From Candidatus Sumerlaeota bacterium (GTDB taxonomy: Bacteria > Sumerlaeota > Sumerlaeia > JADFCW01), in contig JADFCW010000026.1 in NCBI GenBank assembly GCA_017161705.1, positions 1 to 32,083 on the forward strand: a stretch of 32,083 bases of DNA, in the 5' to 3' direction. The position numbers and the translations under genes are program-made. Below, in pieces: positions 468-10,100 of this stretch. A model generated the notes under the pieces. The model was given only the letters and a program-made list of their open reading frames with translations. It made no database searches and had not been told where the DNA came from. Every line of letters starts with the position of its first letter. Position 1 is the stretch's first letter.

Positions 468-1481
468 TTACCGGCCCTCACGCTCCAGCAGTTCGTCGAT
501 CCTCACACCTACCTGCGAGCCCTTACCGCCGAACACCGAACCGGTGATCCGCTTGTCCACCCGCACTTGGGCCAGCGTGTAGGCCCGCTCTGGCAAAGGG
601 ATATAGCCGACTCCCCTGGCCAGTTTGGCGGCATGCTTCAGGTAGAAGTGGATGAATGCTTCGACCTCCGCCCGGTTGAGCGAATCCTTCCTCACATAGA
701 TGAAAATCGGCCGCGACAGCGGCTGGTATGTCCCGTCCATCACGGTCTCCAGGGATGGCGCGATGGGCCCCTTGCCGTTGGTGTCGTCCTCGTCGTCCAC
801 CGGCAGCAACTTGAGTTTGTCTTTGTTCTCCTCGTAGTAGGCCAGGCCGAAAAAGCCGAGGGCCAGTTCGTCGCCGGCGATACCCTGCACCAGGACGTTG
901 TCGTCCTCGCTGGAGGTGAAGTCGCCTCGGCTGGAGTGTTCCTTGCCGACGATAGCCTGGGTGAAGTAGTCGTAGGTGCCGCTGTCCACGCCGGCACCAT
1001 ACAGGTGAATCTCTCGGTCAGGCCAATCCGCGCGGACCTGGTTCCACCGCGTGATCTTGCCCTGGGCCTCCGGCTGCCAGAGCTCCTTGAGTTCCTTGAC
1101 CGTGATGCTTGTGGCCCAGGTGTTCCTCGGGTTGATCACCACCGCCAGCCCGTCATAGGCCACCGGCAACTCGATGTACTCGATGCCGGCCTTGGCGCAC
1201 GCCTCCGCCTCGCTGGGCTTGATCGGGCGGGAGGCATTGGAAATGTCTGTCTCTCCTGCGGCGAATTTCTCGAATCCGCCCCCCGTGCCTGAAACGCCCA
1301 CCACGACGCGCAGGCCGGGATTCACTTTCTGGAACTCCTCGGCTACTGCCTCCGTAATAGGGAACACCGTGCTGGATCCGTCAACCCGCACAGTTCCGCT
1401 TGCAACCACATTCTTCTTCTCGCACCCAGCCAGGCCGATTGCCAGAACGGCAACGAGAACACACACCATGCGCTTCTTCAT
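468..1481 (-). CDS. pstS: Phosphate-binding lipoprotein PstS
   Basis: This is the periplasmic, lipid-anchored phosphate-binding protein that feeds the Pst importer (337 aa). The N-terminus is a lipoprotein signal: MKKRMVC, a hydrophobic core, then the lipobox LAGC with the acylated Cys. The mature part has the PstS signatures [25 protein letters not shown] and SNASRPI, which contribute phosphate-binding Ser/Thr residues. The ATG at 1481 was chosen because an AAGGA Shine-Dalgarno lies about 9 bases upstream and the signal peptide begins there; a TTG six codons further upstream is in frame but less likely. It is first in the visible operon, directly before pstC. I saw no convincing Pho box in the 127 bases between the start and the IS remnant. 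Length is normal for the family. Confidence 0.95.
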
Positions 1482-1608
1482 TGTCCATTTCCTTTCCAAG
1501 GGTAGCTTGTACTTTAATTAGCGACCTCAGCCCAGCGAAGGGACTGATGATAACCACCTGATCAAGAGCATATTCTGACCCCGCCCCGTGAATTCAAGTT
1601 TTTTTCTT

Positions 1609-2485: not shown

Positions 2486-2785
2486 TTAGAGGAGGTCCTG
2501 AAATGCCCGAAGAAGCCACGCCAGAAGCGGGTCGCGCCACCGGCCGATCAGCGCCAGGCCGAGTGCGGCGGCCAGAGCGAGCATCCGGAAGGGGTAGCGG
2601 TGGCACCAGGCGGCAAGGCCCCAGCGGTGCTCGTTGTCATGGTGATAGCGTTCGTGGGCGTCGAGCCGAGCGGCCAGAAGGGCGCGGAGTTCGAGCATCT
2701 GGGCTTCGATGTCGGCGAGGCGCTCGTGGAGGTGGCGGAGTTCGGCGCGCATGAGGCCGCGCAGAATTTTGGGGATGTTGGACAT
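2486..2785 (-). CDS. Small coiled-coil/transmembrane protein, last gene of the tail-like block
   Basis: A 99-aa protein of unknown function. Residues about 10-45 are a charged, leucine-rich amphipathic helix (LRHLHERLADIEAQMLELRA) likely to form a coiled coil. A histidine-rich stretch (ERYHHDNEHRW) follows. Residues about 66-82 (FRMLALAAALGLALIG) form one membrane helix, and the tail is amphipathic. An N-terminal coil with a C-terminal membrane anchor is the layout of XhlA-type phage proteins and some holins, and the position after a tail-fibre-like gene fits that. The resemblance is one of architecture only, with no shared motif. The start is supported by GGAG 8 bases before the ATG. The spacer to the upstream fibre gene is 65 bases, so co-transcription is likely. 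Confidence 0.72.
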   Translation of the reverse strand: MSNIPKILRGLMRAELRHLHERLADIEAQMLELRALLAARLDAHERYHHDNEHRWGLAAWCHRYPFRMLALAAALGLALIGRWRDPLLAWLLRAFQDLL

Positions 2786-2850
2786 AGAAAAGGCTCCAAA
2801 AGATCAGACGGAATAGGCGATGCGGACAAAATGGACAAAGTGGGAGATTT
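2786..2850. repeat. Low-complexity TCCA/TCCG-type spacer
   Basis: Read on the minus strand, this spacer carries TTTGTCCATTTTGTCCGC and then ATTCCGTC, a loose run of short TCCA/TCCG units. Similar units occur in two other spacers of the same gene block (4640-4690 and 8110-8270). It also contains the ribosome-binding site of the 99-aa gene. Confidence 0.4.
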
Positions 2851-4587
2851 CTATTCGAGGTGATACTCGATCTTGAAGCGATAGAGGTTCATAGCGCCGG
2901 CACCGGAGTTGCTGAAGATCAATTTCAACACGTAGCTCTTGTTGTCGTCCATCGTATAATCGGTGTCCAATATTTGGTGTGTGGCGGTGATGTCGTCGGT
3001 GTGCTGGACGACCGCAGCGCCGGCGTCGTCCACGAGGGCGGCTTCGTCAATTAGGGTGCCGGAGCCGCCGGATTGAGCGCAGGCAACGGTGATGCGGTCA
3101 ATGACGACGTGGGCGCCAAGAACGTCGGCGGGGACGGCGAATGCGAAATACGCATGGCCGCTTGCGGCAAAGCTCAGACAGGGCAAATGCTGGGCGGGCG
3201 ATACGTTCGAGGCAGCCGCGATGTAAGCCGCAGTGGGGTGGATAGTCAGAATGAAAGGGGCGTCCGTGCCGTCGGGAAGGGTCAGGCGCGCATCGGCGGC
3301 CATGGCGACGTTGCCGTCGGAGTCGCATTGCCAGACGGCGGCATCCGCGGCGTCGCGGATTTTGACTTTCTTGGCACCGGCGGAGTCGTTGAGATCGAGC
3401 CAGATGTCCTCGTGCGACTGGATGTGGATATATCGGCTGCTGGCGCTGGTTTTCAGCGAGAGATTGGTGTGGCCGAAGCCGCTGACCTCGGCCGTGAACA
3501 TATTGGCGCAGTCCACCTGTGCGCTGGTCTTGAAGACGCCATCGGCACGCCAGTGGCGCGAGGCAGACTCATAGAGAAGATAATCGCCGCTGCCGCTGAG
3601 ACCGGAATTGGACAGATCAATGCCGCGCGTAGGGACGCTGCCGAGGTTCTTGATACTCAGCGCGGCGGTGGTGGCTAGGGCGCCGCCGCCGTCGAGCGTG
3701 AGGCGCGGGGCGGTGATCGAGCCGGTAGCCAGACCGTCGGCAAACGAAAGAGTCCCGAAGACGCGGATGGGGGAAAGAAAGTCCCACTGGCCGGCAATGT
3801 CTTCGTTGGCGGTGCGGCTGAGAAGGGCGCCCGCGCTAATGCCGTTAATGCTGACGAAATTGACCAGCGCCGCTTCGGGCAGGCCCGACAAGCCGCGGCC
3901 GTCGAGCGCAGTATGGATCCGGGCTGCGCCGACAGCGAGATGAGAGAGCGAAGCGCTGGTGGCGCGGACGGGACGCGAGAACTCGAACTCGCCGGGGTTG
4001 CCGAAATAGGAAAGGCGCGGAGAGTTGTAGCCAGCGCCGAATTCGAGGACGGCATTGGGGCCGGGCGCTTGCGGCTCGATGCGGAGCGTTCCAACGAAGA
4101 CAGGCGTTCCGGTGAAGCGCCATGCGCCGGCGATACTTTCGACGGCGTTCTTGAGGACGTGGATCTGGCCGTCTTCGACGTGGCCGCCCAGCGTGGTGTT
4201 GTTTCCAATGTCGGGCGGGATAGGCAACTCGGCGTTGTAGTCGGCCGTGTGACGCTGCCAGTGACGCGCGTCGTTGAGATAATGGGCGTGGTCATCGTCG
4301 GCGAGGCCAGTCAGTTGGCCGTGGTCGCTGCGGCCGGCCAGCAATTGGGAGAGTGTGACGGTGGCGGCGACGTCCTGGTCGCGGAAGGTCAGCGAGCCGG
4401 TGGTGCTGCGCGACAGGCAAACGGTGCCGTCATAGGCGCCGTTGCGGCCGAATTCGACGCGGCCGGTCTGGATGGCGGGGGCGGGAGCGGGAGCAGCGAG
4501 CACAGCGAGAACAGCGAGGGCGGCGGCCGCTTGTTTTTGAAATGCCCGAAAAGCCCCAGCGAACGGGATGCGATTTCTGTTATTCAT
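2851..4587 (-). CDS. Exported phage tail-fibre-like protein
   Basis: A 578-aa protein. The ATG at 4587 has a strong ribosome-binding site (GGAGGGAGA, about 4 bases upstream). Residues 1-38 look like a Sec signal peptide: a basic start (MNNRNR), an Ala/Leu/Val core, then APAPAPA before IQTG. After it comes a segment typical of phage fibres and baseplate appendages, including HGQLTGL and DDDHAHYLNDARH at 97-109. Repeated modules follow with similar ends (SIAGAWRFTGTPVFVGTL, DIAGQWDFLSPIRVFGTL) and a region resembling trimeric fibre shafts. The last 110 residues or so look like a beta-rich, jelly-roll-like binding domain (YIAAASNVSPAQHLPCL to MNLYRFKIEYHLE). A tail fibre with a signal peptide is unusual, because phage tails assemble in the cytoplasm. 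It lies just downstream of the hub-like gene. It could instead be a secreted adhesin. Confidence 0.75.
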   Translation of the reverse strand: MNNRNRIPFAGAFRAFQKQAAAALAVLAVLAAPAPAPAIQTGRVEFGRNGAYDGTVCLSRSTTGSLTFRDQDVAATVTLSQLLAGRSDHGQLTGLADDDHAHYLNDARHWQRHTADYNAELPIPPDIGNNTTLGGHVEDGQIHVLKNAVESIAGAWRFTGTPVFVGTLRIEPQAPGPNAVLEFGAGYNSPRLSYFGNPGEFEFSRPVRATSASLSHLAVGAARIHTALDGRGLSGLPEAALVNFVSINGISAGALLSRTANEDIAGQWDFLSPIRVFGTLSFADGLATGSITAPRLTLDGGGALATTAALSIKNLGSVPTRGIDLSNSGLSGSGDYLLYESASRHWRADGVFKTSAQVDCANMFTAEVSGFGHTNLSLKTSASSRYIHIQSHEDIWLDLNDSAGAKKVKIRDAADAAVWQCDSDGNVAMAADARLTLPDGTDAPFILTIHPTAAYIAAASNVSPAQHLPCLSFAASGHAYFAFAVPADVLGAHVVIDRITVACAQSGGSGTLIDEAALVDDAGAAVVQHTDDITATHQILDTDYTMDDNKSYVLKLIFSNSGAGAMNLYRFKIEYHLE

Positions 4588-4610
4588 AATTTCTCCCTCC
4601 AAAATAATGA

Positions 4611-4630
4611 AGGCGGGCGCATGCCCGCCT
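4611..4630 (-). terminator. Hairpin just upstream of the fibre gene, terminator or attenuator
   Basis: Perfect 8-bp stem AGGCGGGC/GCCCGCCT with a 4-base loop. Read on the minus strand it is followed by TCATTATTTT. It lies 96 bases after the hub-gene stop and 23 bases before the fibre ATG, so it could end hub transcripts or reduce fibre expression. The T-tract is imperfect. Confidence 0.5.
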
Positions 4631-4639
4631 GAGACAGCG

Positions 4640-4690
4640 AACACTCGGACGGATGAGCCGGATCCGATGGATCTGACGGATTCCGAATCG
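4640..4690. repeat. Low-complexity CGGA/GGAT spacer repeat
   Basis: The spacer has closely spaced units: CGGACGGATGAG, CCGGATCCGATGGATC, TGACGGATTCCG. It does not look like coding sequence and matches in style the other spacer repeats of this gene block. Confidence 0.4.
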
Positions 4691-4725
4691 TCAGCGGGGA
4701 TTCAGGACGACGATCGGCCCGCCCG

Positions 4726-7700
4726 CTATAGCGGCGCGTGCTCCACGAGGCTTCCGGCCAGATCGAGCCGGTCTGCCGCGGCACGGTACGCGGCGGCGGC
4801 TGTGGTCAGATCGCACGAAAACAGGAAGAGCGTCTCGTCGGCAGCGTGGCACGCGTCGGTGCTCAAGCCCGACAGATCGGCGGATTCGGCGACGGCGCCC
4901 CGCAGGAGCAAACGCCCGCTGCAATCCAGCGCCATGACGCTCCGGTAGCCGGCGTGCGGTTCGCCGACGCCAAAGCAGATGCGCTGCTCGGTTGGGTCGT
5001 ATTCGACAGCCGCAGACATGTCGCTCACGGCGAGGCCGTGCTCGACCGCCTCGCCGGCGAGGCGCAGACAGCCGGTGCGATCGAGGGAAGCGACGCGCCG
5101 GCCCGCGATAACGAACACTTTTTCACTGCCGCCGGGCGGATGCACAATGTACGTGTGCGAGTCCTCATACCAGCAATACAGGGCGATGGATTGCAGAGCG
5201 AGGGTGAGTCGGACGCGCTGCAGATCGGGAAACTCGACAGCGACAACCTCGCCAGGGGCGCTGTTCAGGCGCGACGGGGCATAGGTCAGCGCAACGACAT
5301 CGCCGCGTTCGAGGTGCGCATGCGAAATCGGCAGCAAGACCTCGACCGTCGGGCATGGGTGCGCGAGGCGGTCGAGCCAGGCGGCGGCCAGACGGAGCGC
5401 CTGACCCGACGGCGCGCTTGCCAGCCAGCGGGCGTGGAAATCGCGGACGAGGCGGCGAATTCCCTGTGCGGCGCCGAAGTCGGGCGATTCGACTTCAATC
5501 CATGCCGCGCCGGAACGCAGTTCTGCGCCTGTCAGGGAGTAGGAAGCGCCGTAGCGAAGGCGGACGGCATTGGCAAGGTCGCGCAACGGTTGGCGGCGTT
5601 TGGCCAGCGGTGCGGAAAGAAGAGTTGTGCTATCCACCGACGCTGCGGTGTCGGACGCCAGCAGAAGCGGGCGCGAAGGGAGCAGCCGGAGTTTTCCGGC
5701 TTCGCAAACGAGTCGGCAGGCGCTTTCGGCGGCGATCTCGTCGAGCAGTTGGCCGACGGGAATGTGAGCGGCGAGGCGGCGGGAAAGCCGCCAGTCGCGG
5801 GCGTCGAGCCAGTCGCGGGCCTGCGCAAACGATTCGGCGTCAATGGCATCGGCGGGCCATCCGAGCCCGTCGGGGCTGGTGGCGAGCCATTCGATAAGGT
5901 CGGCCGGATTTTCGAGAAGCGTTCCGGCGGGAGCGAGCCCTTCGGCGTCGGCGTCGAAGCGGTCGGCCGCGACGGCGTCCTCGCGCGGCGAATACTCGAC
6001 CTCGAAGGCAAGGCCGGAAATGCGGATGTGCGCGGGGTCGCCGGGACCGGAAAACTGTACCCGCACGAACGGACAGGACGTTTCCTTTGGGGCGAAAAAG
6101 GCCCAGCCGCCGTTGGCTGCCACCAGTGTGGTCAGGTCGAAAACCTGCCGATAGATTTTGGTTGGCAAGGCCAACGGGGCGGGTGTCGAGGCTTCCACAG
6201 TGCCCGATCGCCACTGCGGGATCGTGCGCTCGCGGCCGGCGATTCGGGGACGATAGTTCAGAACCAGCCATGCGCCGTAGAGTTTGATCTGGCGGCCGTC
6301 GAGCGAGCGGACGGCAAATTGTGTGGCGGCGTGAACGAGGTTGTCGGTCGTGAGGCCGTTGGCTGTCACGACGGCGGAACAGGTAGCGGGAGCGCTGGCG
6401 GCCAGCACGGTCCAACTGTTTGCATACTTGCCGGCCAGAGCGACATCCAGCGAAACAGAGACAGGAGCATTCTCGTTCGTAGAGAGGCGAACGTGGAACT
6501 CGACCGTTTCCAGGGCAACCTCGGAGGAAGCACCGAGCGGCCGGCGCAGAAGGCGAAACATGAGCGGCGATGCGACGGCCGGCTCGCCGACGGCTTTGTT
6601 CTGCGTCCAGGTGCCGAGATTGCCGTCAATGGCGCGGTCGCGGTCGCTCCAGCCGGAGGCGGGCGGCAAGGTTTCGTCAAATTCCACAACGGCCGTCTGC
6701 AGGCCGATTTCAAACAGCGGGCGCATGTCAGCGATCTGGTCGCGGATCGAGTCCACGTGGGTGTGGGCCGGCAAGACGGCCATGTTTTCGCTTTGCGGTG
6801 GACGAGGGAGAGGAAAAGCGGCGGTTGCATCGCCGCGGCCGGCGATGACGGAGACAGTGCTCGAAGCCAGCCAGTGCTCGGATGCGCAGTATTCAATGGT
6901 CAATCGGCAGTGTTCGAACCGGCCGTAGCGCAAGGCGCCGCCGCTCAGGTCGCCGCGGTATTCGACTTCCAGACGCGGGGCGGAAGCGGTCACAACGGCG
7001 GCCATGGGCGAGTGGGGGCCTTCGAGTGCAGCCAGCGGGTTTGCGGCCGTGTTTTCCGCAGCGGCAAACCACAGGTTCGGGTCTTCGCGGCTGTCCATGC
7101 GCCGGACGGCGCGCGCGGGCGCATAGCGGACTTCGGCAGGCAGAACGGGGAAGACCACTTTCTGGACGTCGCGGCCGGCGATGCGGTCGGCGGCGACGCT
7201 GTATTCGGCCGGATCAAGCACACGGGCGCCGGAATAGACGGGGCCCACGGACTGGCAGAGATGATCGGCGACGAGGTATTGAAAGCCGCCTTCGGGGATC
7301 GAGTCCACAGCGGCGCCGTCGCGATGGTAGGCGGGCGCAGGGCGGCGGACGGGCGAGTCGTCGCGTCCGAGCGTGCGGCGGATGCGGTCGAGCGCGGAAT
7401 AGAAAATGACCTCGTCGCCGATTTGCACTGCGCCTTCAGCGGGAAAGACTGTTGCGTCCTCGACGGGGATGACACGCGCGTCGGACGAAAGCGCCTCGCG
7501 CAGATAGCCGCGCCGTCCCACGCGCCAGGGCACAAGCGGCGAACGGGCGATGCGGCCGAACAGCAGCGGGATCATTCGGCCGATTGCCGCGGGCGACAGG
7601 GCCGGGTCCATCGTGCGGAACAGGCGGCGGCCGATCATGCGCCGGCCGTCTGCTTCGAGCGCTTCGAGCAGATGCAGAATGGCCTTGCCGCTTTCCAGCA

Positions 7701-8097
7701 CGCAGGACTCGACGCGATACGTTTGAATCCAAACAATATCGGCCGGTTGAAGAACAAGGTTGGGATTGGGGAAGATGAAACCGATGCGGACGGTGCGGCC
7801 TTCGATGCCGTCGGATTCGACGCGCAATTCGAAGCGGTCGGCCCCCTGTTCGGCGGTGTTGGCCAATTCGATGCGGACGGCCGGGCGGACGGGCGGCGAA
7901 TCGGGCAAGATCGAGGGCAACACCAGGCCGAGTCCCTCGATGGCAACCACGATGGGACGATAGGCGTGGCTGCCGACAGCAATAGGGCGCGTGCTGTATC
8001 GGCCGATGTTATCAGACCAGTCGAGCTCGACCAGCCAGGCAAGATCATGGCTGTGGCTCTGGCGCAGGATGTTCATTTCGAAGGAGAGCGTTTTCAC
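4726..8097 (-). CDS. Phage tail hub/tip-like multidomain protein
   Basis: A 1123-aa protein, intact throughout. The GTG at 8097 was chosen because AGGAG lies 8 bases upstream; codons further upstream fall in spacer repeats. Residues about 10-200 resemble the module found in tail-assembly proteins of gene-transfer agents and siphophages (DUF2163-like layout). Residues 211-233 carry PVEDATVFPAEGAVQIGDE, a motif recurrent in minor tail proteins. The middle is beta-rich, with likely sugar-binding or jelly-roll-type modules around 470-700. Residues 730-811 carry NPADLIEWLATSPDGLGW, then LLDEIAAESACRLVCEAG and LRLLPSRP. That is the pattern of the lambda J/siphophage hub region. The C-terminal 200 residues have short repeated strands (VFVIAGRRVASLDRTGCL, MALDCSGRLLLRGAVAE) like a partial beta-propeller. 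Assignments are from recalled motifs, not alignment. Confidence 0.7.
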   Translation of the reverse strand: MKTLSFEMNILRQSHSHDLAWLVELDWSDNIGRYSTRPIAVGSHAYRPIVVAIEGLGLVLPSILPDSPPVRPAVRIELANTAEQGADRFELRVESDGIEGRTVRIGFIFPNPNLVLQPADIVWIQTYRVESCVLESGKAILHLLEALEADGRRMIGRRLFRTMDPALSPAAIGRMIPLLFGRIARSPLVPWRVGRRGYLREALSSDARVIPVEDATVFPAEGAVQIGDEVIFYSALDRIRRTLGRDDSPVRRPAPAYHRDGAAVDSIPEGGFQYLVADHLCQSVGPVYSGARVLDPAEYSVAADRIAGRDVQKVVFPVLPAEVRYAPARAVRRMDSREDPNLWFAAAENTAANPLAALEGPHSPMAAVVTASAPRLEVEYRGDLSGGALRYGRFEHCRLTIEYCASEHWLASSTVSVIAGRGDATAAFPLPRPPQSENMAVLPAHTHVDSIRDQIADMRPLFEIGLQTAVVEFDETLPPASGWSDRDRAIDGNLGTWTQNKAVGEPAVASPLMFRLLRRPLGASSEVALETVEFHVRLSTNENAPVSVSLDVALAGKYANSWTVLAASAPATCSAVVTANGLTTDNLVHAATQFAVRSLDGRQIKLYGAWLVLNYRPRIAGRERTIPQWRSGTVEASTPAPLALPTKIYRQVFDLTTLVAANGGWAFFAPKETSCPFVRVQFSGPGDPAHIRISGLAFEVEYSPREDAVAADRFDADAEGLAPAGTLLENPADLIEWLATSPDGLGWPADAIDAESFAQARDWLDARDWRLSRRLAAHIPVGQLLDEIAAESACRLVCEAGKLRLLPSRPLLLASDTAASVDSTTLLSAPLAKRRQPLRDLANAVRLRYGASYSLTGAELRSGAAWIEVESPDFGAAQGIRRLVRDFHARWLASAPSGQALRLAAAWLDRLAHPCPTVEVLLPISHAHLERGDVVALTYAPSRLNSAPGEVVAVEFPDLQRVRLTLALQSIALYCWYEDSHTYIVHPPGGSEKVFVIAGRRVASLDRTGCLRLAGEAVEHGLAVSDMSAAVEYDPTEQRICFGVGEPHAGYRSVMALDCSGRLLLRGAVAESADLSGLSTDACHAADETLFLFSCDLTTAAAAYRAAADRLDLAGSLVEHAPL

Positions 8098-8109
8098 TTG
8101 GGGGTCTCC

Positions 8110-8270
8110 TGGGGGATGAATGGACAGCATGGATGACATGGGCAACAAGGATACAGTGGACGTTAGCAGCAGCTCCGAAAAGGGTTTTGTGTTTCTGCCT
8201 GGTTTGCTCAGTCCATGTAGTCCATTCCGACCATGCTTTTTGTTCCGACCATGCTGTCCATTTGGCTCCT
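8110..8270. repeat. Degenerate TCCA/TTCCGACC tandem repeats in a spacer
   Basis: The 174-base spacer between the 202-aa gene and the hub gene contains TTCCGACCATGCT at 8225-8237 and again at 8243-8255 (18-base period), GTCCATGTAGTCCATT just before, and ATGGACAGCATGGATGACATG at its other end written in the opposite sense. I see no convincing gene in it. The hub ribosome-binding site lies at its end. Confidence 0.55.
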
Positions 8271-8271
8271 C

Positions 8272-8880
8272 TCACACATACTCGCCTCGAGCGGTCAACT
8301 GGAGACAGAAGCTTACCGAAAGCAGGTGGCGTGCGTTGCGCGACCATTCGAGCGCGGGCGCATCGAGCGCCACGCGCCAGATGACCCGCGCGGCATCCAC
8401 ATAGGAGAACGGTTCGAGGCCCCCGGCGGCTTGCGTGTTGAACCATTCCGCCAGCTGCAATGCGCGCTCGTCGGTCAGATCCTCGAAGCGAACGGATTCG
8501 ACATAATGGGGCGGGCGCAATCGTGTGGCATAAGCCGGGCCGCCTACCGCGCGGACAATCTCGACGCCGGTCTGCTGCGTTCGTTTCGCGGCCGGTTCGA
8601 GGCCGACCGGCCACTCGAATAGCGACCGGGGCGTCCACAATTTTGCGCCCGGCGCCTTCCCCTCGCGCGTGGCAAAGGCCACGGTAATCGAGTCGGCAGC
8701 GACCGACTGGATGGTGCCGAGAAACTCGATCCGGGTCTGGTCGAATTCGCTGAGGAAAACGCGCCGGCCCGCGCGGAAGGAATCCGCCGCGCCAAGGGTC
8801 GGGATAATCCGCACACCGGCGCCGACCGCCCCGCTGGTTTCGCGCTGAACCTCTTTGCTCTGACAGAATAAGGGAATCAT
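8272..8880 (-). CDS. Distal-tail-like minor tail protein
   Basis: A 202-aa protein encoded directly before the hub-like gene. The C-terminal half (YVESVRFEDLTDERALQLAEWF, then GGLEPFSYVDAARVIWRVALD and a final run of alternating hydrophobic strands) resembles the C-terminal beta domain of siphophage distal-tail proteins and the gene-transfer-agent protein next to the hub. In those proteins an F-x-x-D turn is followed by an Arg-Trp/Val strand. The N-terminal half is beta-rich, with an SH3-like stretch around 30-70 (RVFLSEFDQTRIEFLGTIQS). Its ATG overlaps the stop of the upstream 155-aa gene by 4 bases (ATGA), indicating translational coupling. The position just before a hub gene matches siphophage order. 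The functional call is inference from weak motifs plus context. Confidence 0.6.
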   Translation of the reverse strand: MIPLFCQSKEVQRETSGAVGAGVRIIPTLGAADSFRAGRRVFLSEFDQTRIEFLGTIQSVAADSITVAFATREGKAPGAKLWTPRSLFEWPVGLEPAAKRTQQTGVEIVRAVGGPAYATRLRPPHYVESVRFEDLTDERALQLAEWFNTQAAGGLEPFSYVDAARVIWRVALDAPALEWSRNARHLLSVSFCLQLTARGEYV

Positions 8881-9344
8881 GGCCTGGACCTCCGGGAAGC
8901 GGGCGATGAAGCAGCGTTGGAACTCATCGCGACGGTTTTCGGTTCGAGGATCGGCCGGACTGCCCGTGCGGCTTCGACGGCTTCGCCGACCAAAAGCAGT
9001 GCGACGGAATAGGTCAGCGGCTCGCGCGTTTCAGCAGAGGCCGACGGCAGGAGAGCGCGGAAAAACCCATCGAGAGCGACATAGAGCGCGCGGACAGCGG
9101 CGCTCTCCCTGTCGGGCGATTCCGGGGGGCAGGGAGCACCCGCGTCGGCCAGTTGTCCGATTGCCCGCAGAAGGGCGGCGAAGGGTTCGAGCAAATGACT
9201 TTGGCTGACCTCGACAACGAGGCCGCCGAGCAGGAGGGCGTCTGCAGGCGGCGCGGCGGCGGGCGCGGCTGAGAGGACGTTGGGAGGGTCGGGTTTTCGG
9301 GGATGCGGGTGTTTCCATGCAGCGGCCTGGGGGTGGTAGCACAT
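8877..9344 (-). CDS. Hypothetical protein, first gene of the tail-like block
   Basis: A 155-aa protein I do not recognise. The first 35 residues or so are Pro/Ala/His-rich and probably disordered. Residues about 36-70 (LLLGGLVVEVSQSHLLEPFAALLRAIGQL) and 80-130 (VRALYVALDGFFRALLP and YSVALLLVGEAVEAARAV) are predicted mostly helical, and the C-terminus is a Ser/Ala/Arg tail. No signal peptide or clear membrane segment. The ATG at 9344 has GGAG 8 bases upstream. The stop overlaps the next start by 4 bases, so it is translated together with the distal-tail-like gene. By position it could be a tail-assembly or chaperone-like protein, but nothing in the sequence proves it. Confidence 0.6.
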   Translation of the reverse strand: MCYHPQAAAWKHPHPRKPDPPNVLSAAPAAAPPADALLLGGLVVEVSQSHLLEPFAALLRAIGQLADAGAPCPPESPDRESAAVRALYVALDGFFRALLPSASAETREPLTYSVALLLVGEAVEAARAVRPILEPKTVAMSSNAASSPASRRSRP

Positions 9345-9395: not shown

Positions 9396-9515
9396 ACGCG
9401 CGCAACGTGCCGCCGATTGAAATCCGCTGACAGGCAAGTCGTCAATTCGCGCAGGCGCCCTTGGGGACACTTGCAGGAACCAAATCGTCGTGGATTGTTT
9501 GGAATCGGAGGCGGG

Positions 9516-10100
9516 TCAAGCCAGAAAATCGCGTCCGTTGAACTCGCTCAACAAGCCTGGGGTCAGGCCCTCGGCGACAGCGCGCTCGACGGCGTCGGCG
9601 GCGCCTTCGCAGACGCGCTCGACCGTCTCTCGGGTTTTGCCCCAGAACGGACGCAGGACATACTCGGTCAGGTCGTCTATCGGCTCGCCTGCGTCTATGC
9701 CGATGCGAAGGCGGGGGAACTCGTTCGTGCCGAGATGATGAATGATCGAAAGCAACCCTTTGTGGCCGCCGGCGCTTCCGCGGGCCCGGATACGCAACCG
9801 CCCCACCTTCAAAGCTACGTCGTCGCATACGACCAGCAGTTGCGATGGTTCGATTGCGTGGCAGCGGGCAAACGGCGCGACGGCCTCGCCGCTGAGATTC
9901 ATGTAGGTCGTCGGCTGCATGAGAACGACCTCGCGGCCGGCAATTTGCGCAGTAGCCAGAAGAGCGCGGTCTTTGCGCGATGCGCGAAACGCGGCGCCGT
10001 GGCGGTCGGCCAGAAGATCGGTCACCACAAAGCCGACATTGTGCGGCGTATGGCGGTAGTTCAGTCCCGGGTTTCCCAGGCCGACAATCAGTCGAATCAT
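9516..10100 (-). CDS. pth: Peptidyl-tRNA hydrolase
   Basis: Cytoplasmic enzyme that cleaves the ester bond of peptidyl-tRNAs released from stalled ribosomes, recycling tRNA. The 194-aa length is typical. The family residues are in their usual numbered positions: Asn10 (GLGNPG), the catalytic His20 (TPHNVGF), Asn68 (TTYMNLSG), Asp93 (VVCDDVAL) and His113 (GSAGGHKGL). Position 114, Asn in E. coli, is Lys here; I believe this occurs in other lineages. The start is the conserved MIRLIVGLGNPG. It lies 12 bases downstream of trpF and is probably co-transcribed with trpC-trpF, an unusual pairing for a translation-recycling enzyme. Confidence 0.96.
   Translation of the reverse strand: MIRLIVGLGNPGLNYRHTPHNVGFVVTDLLADRHGAAFRASRKDRALLATAQIAGREVVLMQPTTYMNLSGEAVAPFARCHAIEPSQLLVVCDDVALKVGRLRIRARGSAGGHKGLLSIIHHLGTNEFPRLRIGIDAGEPIDDLTEYVLRPFWGKTRETVERVCEGAADAVERAVAEGLTPGLLSEFNGRDFLA

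Follow-up and report, generated by a model that had tools for sequence, protein, structure and literature searches.

The known gene transfer agents (GTAs) come from few lineages, mostly Alphaproteobacteria. In the RcGTA type (Rhodogtaviriformidae), whose hosts are Alphaproteobacteria, phage-derived genes for head, terminase, portal, protease, Dit (distal-tail protein) and hub are found at dispersed loci, which co-diversify vertically and contain no integrase (criteria of PMC9662315). BaGTA of Bartonella and BhGTA (VSH-1) of Brachyspira were domesticated independently and are likewise dispersed and vertically inherited (PMC9662315). The DNA analysed here is from Candidatus Sumerlaeota (formerly BRC1) and contains a block of five tail-tip genes at positions 2486-9344. 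The window is the entire contig G000:C114 of 32,083 bases, which is part of a metagenome-assembled genome (MAG) of 395 contigs. G000 is the genome of the window, G001 that of a sister species and g1 their genus; f1, f2 and so on are families within the class Sumerlaeia. We know of no cultured model in the Sumerlaeota. In the papers searched, nothing was found on GTAs or prophage capsids in this phylum, and a search for other comparable systems returned known GTAs only.

From its sequence, the block is probably one locus, that of the tail tip, of a GTA-like system that is dispersed and vertically inherited in the Sumerlaeia and derives from a Mu-like siphophage. The system would most likely be an independently domesticated GTA lineage that packages host DNA, and it may pass DNA between cells. 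It shares with the RcGTA type all of the features given above, but it occurs in Sumerlaeota and its ancestor differs, as it has a Mu-like portal (PF06074), a phrog_1005 capsid and a phrog_38 terminase. Also unlike the RcGTA type, g1 has portal, head, terminase and tail tip each at a locus of its own, a tape-measure gene is lacking and a terminator-Dit fusion is found. The gene order Portal_Mu, protease, cement, major capsid protein (MCP), gp36 and gp37 is that of Mu-like siphophage head-tail modules (JBD30/Chi/RDJL-like), the fold of Dit resembles JBD30 baseplate and Chi tail-tip chains, and the MCPs are 30-41% identical to those of phages. In contrast to these phages, the domesticated set has no transposase, integrase, tape measure or tube (except for a tube candidate in G004), its terminase is unlinked and its phylogeny is host-like.

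The block itself proved to be as the earlier note had described it: five open frames on the minus strand, with starts that were checked and an ATGA overlap between the first two genes. Together with the site upstream, its features are:

2486..2785, minus strand: coiled-coil and transmembrane (TM) protein of 99 amino acids (aa); the family closes the module in f1, f2, f5 and f11
2851..4587, minus strand: fibre-like protein, 578 aa, with an N-terminal Sec-signal-like segment; homologues lie behind the hub in most hub-bearing relatives
4726..8097, minus strand: tail hub, 1123 aa, with a Phage-tail_3 domain; GTG start after AGGAG
8272..8880, minus strand: Dit-like protein, 202 aa; overlaps the 155-aa gene
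8877..9344, minus strand: 155-aa protein, the first gene of the unit; 73% identical in G001
9440..9475, minus strand: putative promoter/operator; direct repeats CAAGTGTCCC-CAAGGGCGCC with 11-bp spacing, running into GCGAATTGACG (-35-like TTGAC)

As noted before, the frames of the window include none for head, portal, terminase, tape measure or integrase. When searching G000 with head queries, protease, cement, capsid and adaptor genes were found on contig C52 (33.9-36.8 kb); in G001 the head genes are on C45 and a solo portal gene is on C242. The large terminase gene (TerL, phrog_38) is at a further locus in both genomes (G000:C318 and G001:C177). It was detected with the phrog_38 profile, while the Pfam Terminase_6N search missed it. 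Terminase, portal, head and tail tip thus occupy four unlinked chromosomal loci among housekeeping genes in g1. The domesticated TerL is usually present as a single copy per genome, also among housekeeping genes, and in G005, which is assembled as a single contig, head and TerL are ~130 kb apart. In most relatives with Dit, on the other hand, the tail-tip genes directly follow a Mu-like head module within one operon. This module consists of portal (Portal_Mu, 5.5e-101), protease (phrog_976), cement, MCP (phrog_1005, 1.9e-81) and gp36 adaptor, in this order. Of 29-31 TerL copies, all or nearly all keep the motifs APRGxAKST and LDDxE (Walker A/B) and the nuclease acids. Two domesticated-type TerL genes were found at separate loci in G029 (L272 on C90, L273 on C51), both with the promoter motif described below. 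On G025:C183 (L301) a hub frame lies almost directly behind the portal, and the protease, cement, capsid and adaptor genes are gone, though present in the genus mate G016; this is either an assembly collapse or a real deletion.

In seven families the same motif stands ahead of the terminase, portal/head and tail-tip units, which are not linked to one another. This class-wide 36-bp element (tAAGggtc..tAAG.g.Cccta.GGGAATTGAC) contains two 11-bp direct repeats, one helical turn apart, that lead into a -35-like TTGAC. It was scored with a position-weight matrix, for which each family was held out of training, against 288 control upstreams. With its own family held out, the site in the window scored 28.2, above 288/288 controls; it is the sole match above 14 in the window and is conserved in G001. 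In the leave-one-family-out test overall, 31 of 61 operon starts scored above 99% of the controls. A 21-bp core pattern was matched exactly at the head and terminase loci and, in G001, at the portal locus, and nowhere else in the 4.67 and 4.70 Mb searched; as the pattern was built from the g1 sites themselves, this result speaks for specificity. When the upstreams of TerL and portal were compared pairwise by raw identity, most genomes showed a weak likeness, which was resolved by the matrix. In f1 and f7, tail-tip genes that open their own unit carry the motif, whereas those inside a head operon are generally without it. In 1.24 Mb of G013 (f12), 36% of the genome, searched with a matrix built without f12, the three matches above 20 were at TerL, at the head operon and at a Toprim/AAA_25 gene. 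The latter (L378/L379, G013:C3:138520-140535, promoter match at 140618) is primase-helicase-like and may be a further member of the regulon. One extra match, on G001:C219, is at sulfatase genes and was taken as chance. The shared promoter is the strongest evidence that the block in the window would function jointly with head and terminase. The earlier note's guess of an accessory to a GTA encoded elsewhere holds up well, given these loci and their common promoter.

Next to the promoter, the inheritance of the genes was considered. Matches to Dit were found in 14 of 61 genomes, all of them Sumerlaeia, and the hub profile matched in 26 of the 41 genomes searched with it. The cellular-clade MCP occurs once in 34/39 Sumerlaeia genomes and is absent from the sole genome of another class; at least one of capsid, portal and terminase is kept in 37/39. 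Among 84,980 species genomes, all MCP matches with at least 45% identity were in Sumerlaeota/BRC1-named genomes or in bacterial MAGs without a name, and the nearest capsids outside the Sumerlaeota are those of phages, at no more than 41% identity. Two short IMG/VR contigs labelled viral (L113 and L114) contain a cellular-type capsid at 72-74% identity and look like pieces of Sumerlaeia chromosomes mislabelled as viruses; L113 has a weak promoter match (score 19.9). MCP and TerL trees group the genomes into the same families as rpoB does, with phage and prophage copies (G004:C26 and others) far outside. The numbers of splits shared with rpoB were 13/23 for MCP, 16/24 for TerL, 14/22 for portal and 8/13 for both Dit and hub, compared to ~0.3 when labels were permuted. 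Between G000 and G001, the ratio of non-synonymous to synonymous substitution rates (dN/dS) was 0.046 for MCP, 0.14 for TerL, 0.17 for Dit, 0.21 for hub, 0.17 for fibre and 0.37 for the 155-aa protein; the reference genes rpoB and trpF gave 0.040 and 0.14. The particle genes are vertically inherited, co-diverge with the host and are under purifying selection. This, the shared promoter and the finding of head and terminase at other loci of the genome lend good support to the earlier claim that the block is domesticated and maintained, not decaying; the range of 0.17-0.21 for Dit, hub and fibre comes from the comparison across relatives that had been proposed there.

A tape measure, for which the earlier note had proposed a search elsewhere in the genome, was matched by its profile only in genomes with separate, ordinary prophages and on a phage fragment, G014:C29. 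The hub on this fragment was rejected as part of a domesticated set, as a large protein in tape-measure position stands by Dit and hub, which indicates an ordinary phage. The gene that precedes the hub in f8 and f13 encodes a terminator-Dit fusion. Towards the N terminus it matches the gp37/terminator profile (3e-5), with a predicted fold like that of the terminators of Mu, lambda and T5; its C-terminal part matches the Dit profile (3e-15). Normally, a tail terminator forms the cap at the tube's far end. In the fusion the two rings would therefore touch, which implies a tail that would be without a tube. A complete prophage with the same kind of genes is present in G004, alongside the domesticated set: G004:C26 (L019/L075) is of the Mu-like siphophage type, with a tape measure and an Ig-domain tube candidate. 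It holds only distant paralogues, ~30-36% identical and outside the cellular clade. The G004 'Ig' protein showed no homology to the prophage tube, so the tube in G004 is a candidate only. In the window and the inspected neighbourhoods of cellular-clade loci, no integrase or transposase was found together with a full head-to-tail set and a tape measure. No close relatives of the window's Dit or hub were found among viral contigs and phage records.

A mechanism can be proposed from these components. An activator would bind the 11-bp direct repeats, and the loci would be switched on together. The protease would mature the capsid on the portal, and TerL would fill it by headful packaging with any cell DNA it meets. 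Adaptor, Dit ring and hub would form a very short, tube-less, fibre-bearing tail. Lysis would then free the particles, which may bind recipient cells and deliver the DNA. Three of the six GTA criteria in PMC9662315 describe what was found here, namely structural proteins derived from Caudoviricetes, endogenisation at multiple loci and vertical co-diversification; those remaining are packaging of mostly random host DNA, a head too small for the system's own genes and delivery to cells. Judging from the dispersal over four loci, a particle is unlikely to package all of its own genes.

Several points weigh against a GTA. BaGTA and BhGTA were formally recognised from experimental particle evidence, whereas the Sumerlaeia set, similarly domesticated, dispersed and vertical, is known from its genes and is classed as GTA-like rather than as an established GTA. 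The portal was absent from the G000 assembly when searched with that of G001. Neither a small terminase nor an activator gene was identified, no endolysin was found beside the tail-tip block in g1, and the promoter motif went undetected in f8 and f13. The main doubt comes from f5, which has retained the genes for head, portal, terminase and the TM protein but no detectable hub or Dit; its particles could therefore not deliver DNA as assumed. We also considered, as a tentative and rather doubtful extension, an ancient class-wide particle without a tube, run as one regulon that includes the Toprim/AAA gene, with f5 having lost the tail altogether and its head turned to a non-transfer use.

The same gene set could also make DNA-packaging particles without any gene transfer, such as a compartment that holds DNA inside the cell, a kin-killing particle or a lysis weapon. 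The gene content of f5 fits this explanation, as do the domesticated sets without a tape measure and the Sec-signal-like N-termini of the fibre-like proteins. However, most of the other families conserve hub and fibre under purifying selection, and the ATPase and nuclease residues of TerL are intact, as would be expected of a system that packages and delivers DNA; we regard particles of this kind as unlikely. It is far less probable that the tail tip stands alone as an adhesin, an injector or a tailocin-like device. The window has tail-tip genes only, which led the earlier note to propose a surface adhesin, but the head and terminase loci of the same genome share promoter and history with the block, there is no tube to build a tailocin (nor a tape measure), and in most relatives the tail-tip genes are in one operon behind the capsid genes. 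The block belongs integrally to a larger head-packaging set, from which it was split off. Of the earlier reading, the domestication and the link to a GTA are supported, while the stand-alone apparatus is not.

Equally improbable is a capsid-forming satellite or phage-parasite island, similar to phage-inducible chromosomal islands (PICI-like). Such elements would explain why the head and tail gene sets are compact and lack a complete phage genome around them, but there is no integrase, the loci are scattered, inheritance is vertical throughout the class and the terminase is at a separate locus of its own. The least credible explanation is a decaying prophage remnant scattered by rearrangement. 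The pieces are indeed dispersed, with no integrase or replication block nearby. Decay is opposed by dN/dS values far below 1, frames that are all open, the presence in 34/39 genomes, host-like trees and the conserved promoter.

If the GTA-like system is indeed a GTA, it would be an independent, class-wide lineage retained by nearly every genome. The shared promoter suggests that the phage genes, though scattered, operate as a single system, and with its motif the remaining members (activator and lysis genes) could be sought in any genome of the Sumerlaeota. Judging from the terminator-Dit fusion and the lack of a tape measure, a phage tail may be cut down to almost nothing and still be maintained. 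In viromes, the portal and head genes would be detectable.

The block is flanked by chromosomal genes, which lie outside the element:

468..1499, minus strand: pstS, flank on the left side; join without independent confirmation
9516..10100, minus strand: pth, flank on the right side; same neighbour and order in G001

The five-gene order was recovered in the sister species, where the same genes lie behind pth-trpF-trpC on G001:C13. As this flank is repeated there, the right-hand join is no assembly artefact. The G001 contig ends inside the TM gene and no close pstS orthologue was found, leaving the left join unconfirmed by G001. Of the close housekeeping flanks reported earlier, the pth side thus stands, and the pst side lacks such confirmation. 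Between pstS and the TM gene, ~1 kb (1500-2485) is without a convincing gene.

Finally, we looked at the single proteins of the block. The 155-aa protein has a weak blastp match (E=8e-5) to a 111-aa protein upstream of Dit in G004, to which it is possibly related. The model of the Dit-like protein made with AlphaFold2 (AF2; pLDDT 90.3) fits the expected tail fold, with Foldseek matches to the T1 tail tube, the JBD30 baseplate and the Chi tail tip. Its homologue in the G004 prophage is directly behind the tape measure, and the 202-aa protein is therefore Dit by position. The Phage-tail_3 domain (PF13550), also found in the RcGTA hub, was detected in the hub with E=1e-7 and in its G001 orthologue with 6.5e-10. 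The 99-aa coiled-coil/TM protein is a possible holin or lysis accessory; a Pfam search matched no family. Most homologues of the fibre-like protein have a Sec-signal-like N-terminus with a small-residue cleavage motif, followed by a conserved [IV]xT..VE.G..G.YDG. Such a start is odd for a part of a virion, and it is also present in the prophage copy at L019.

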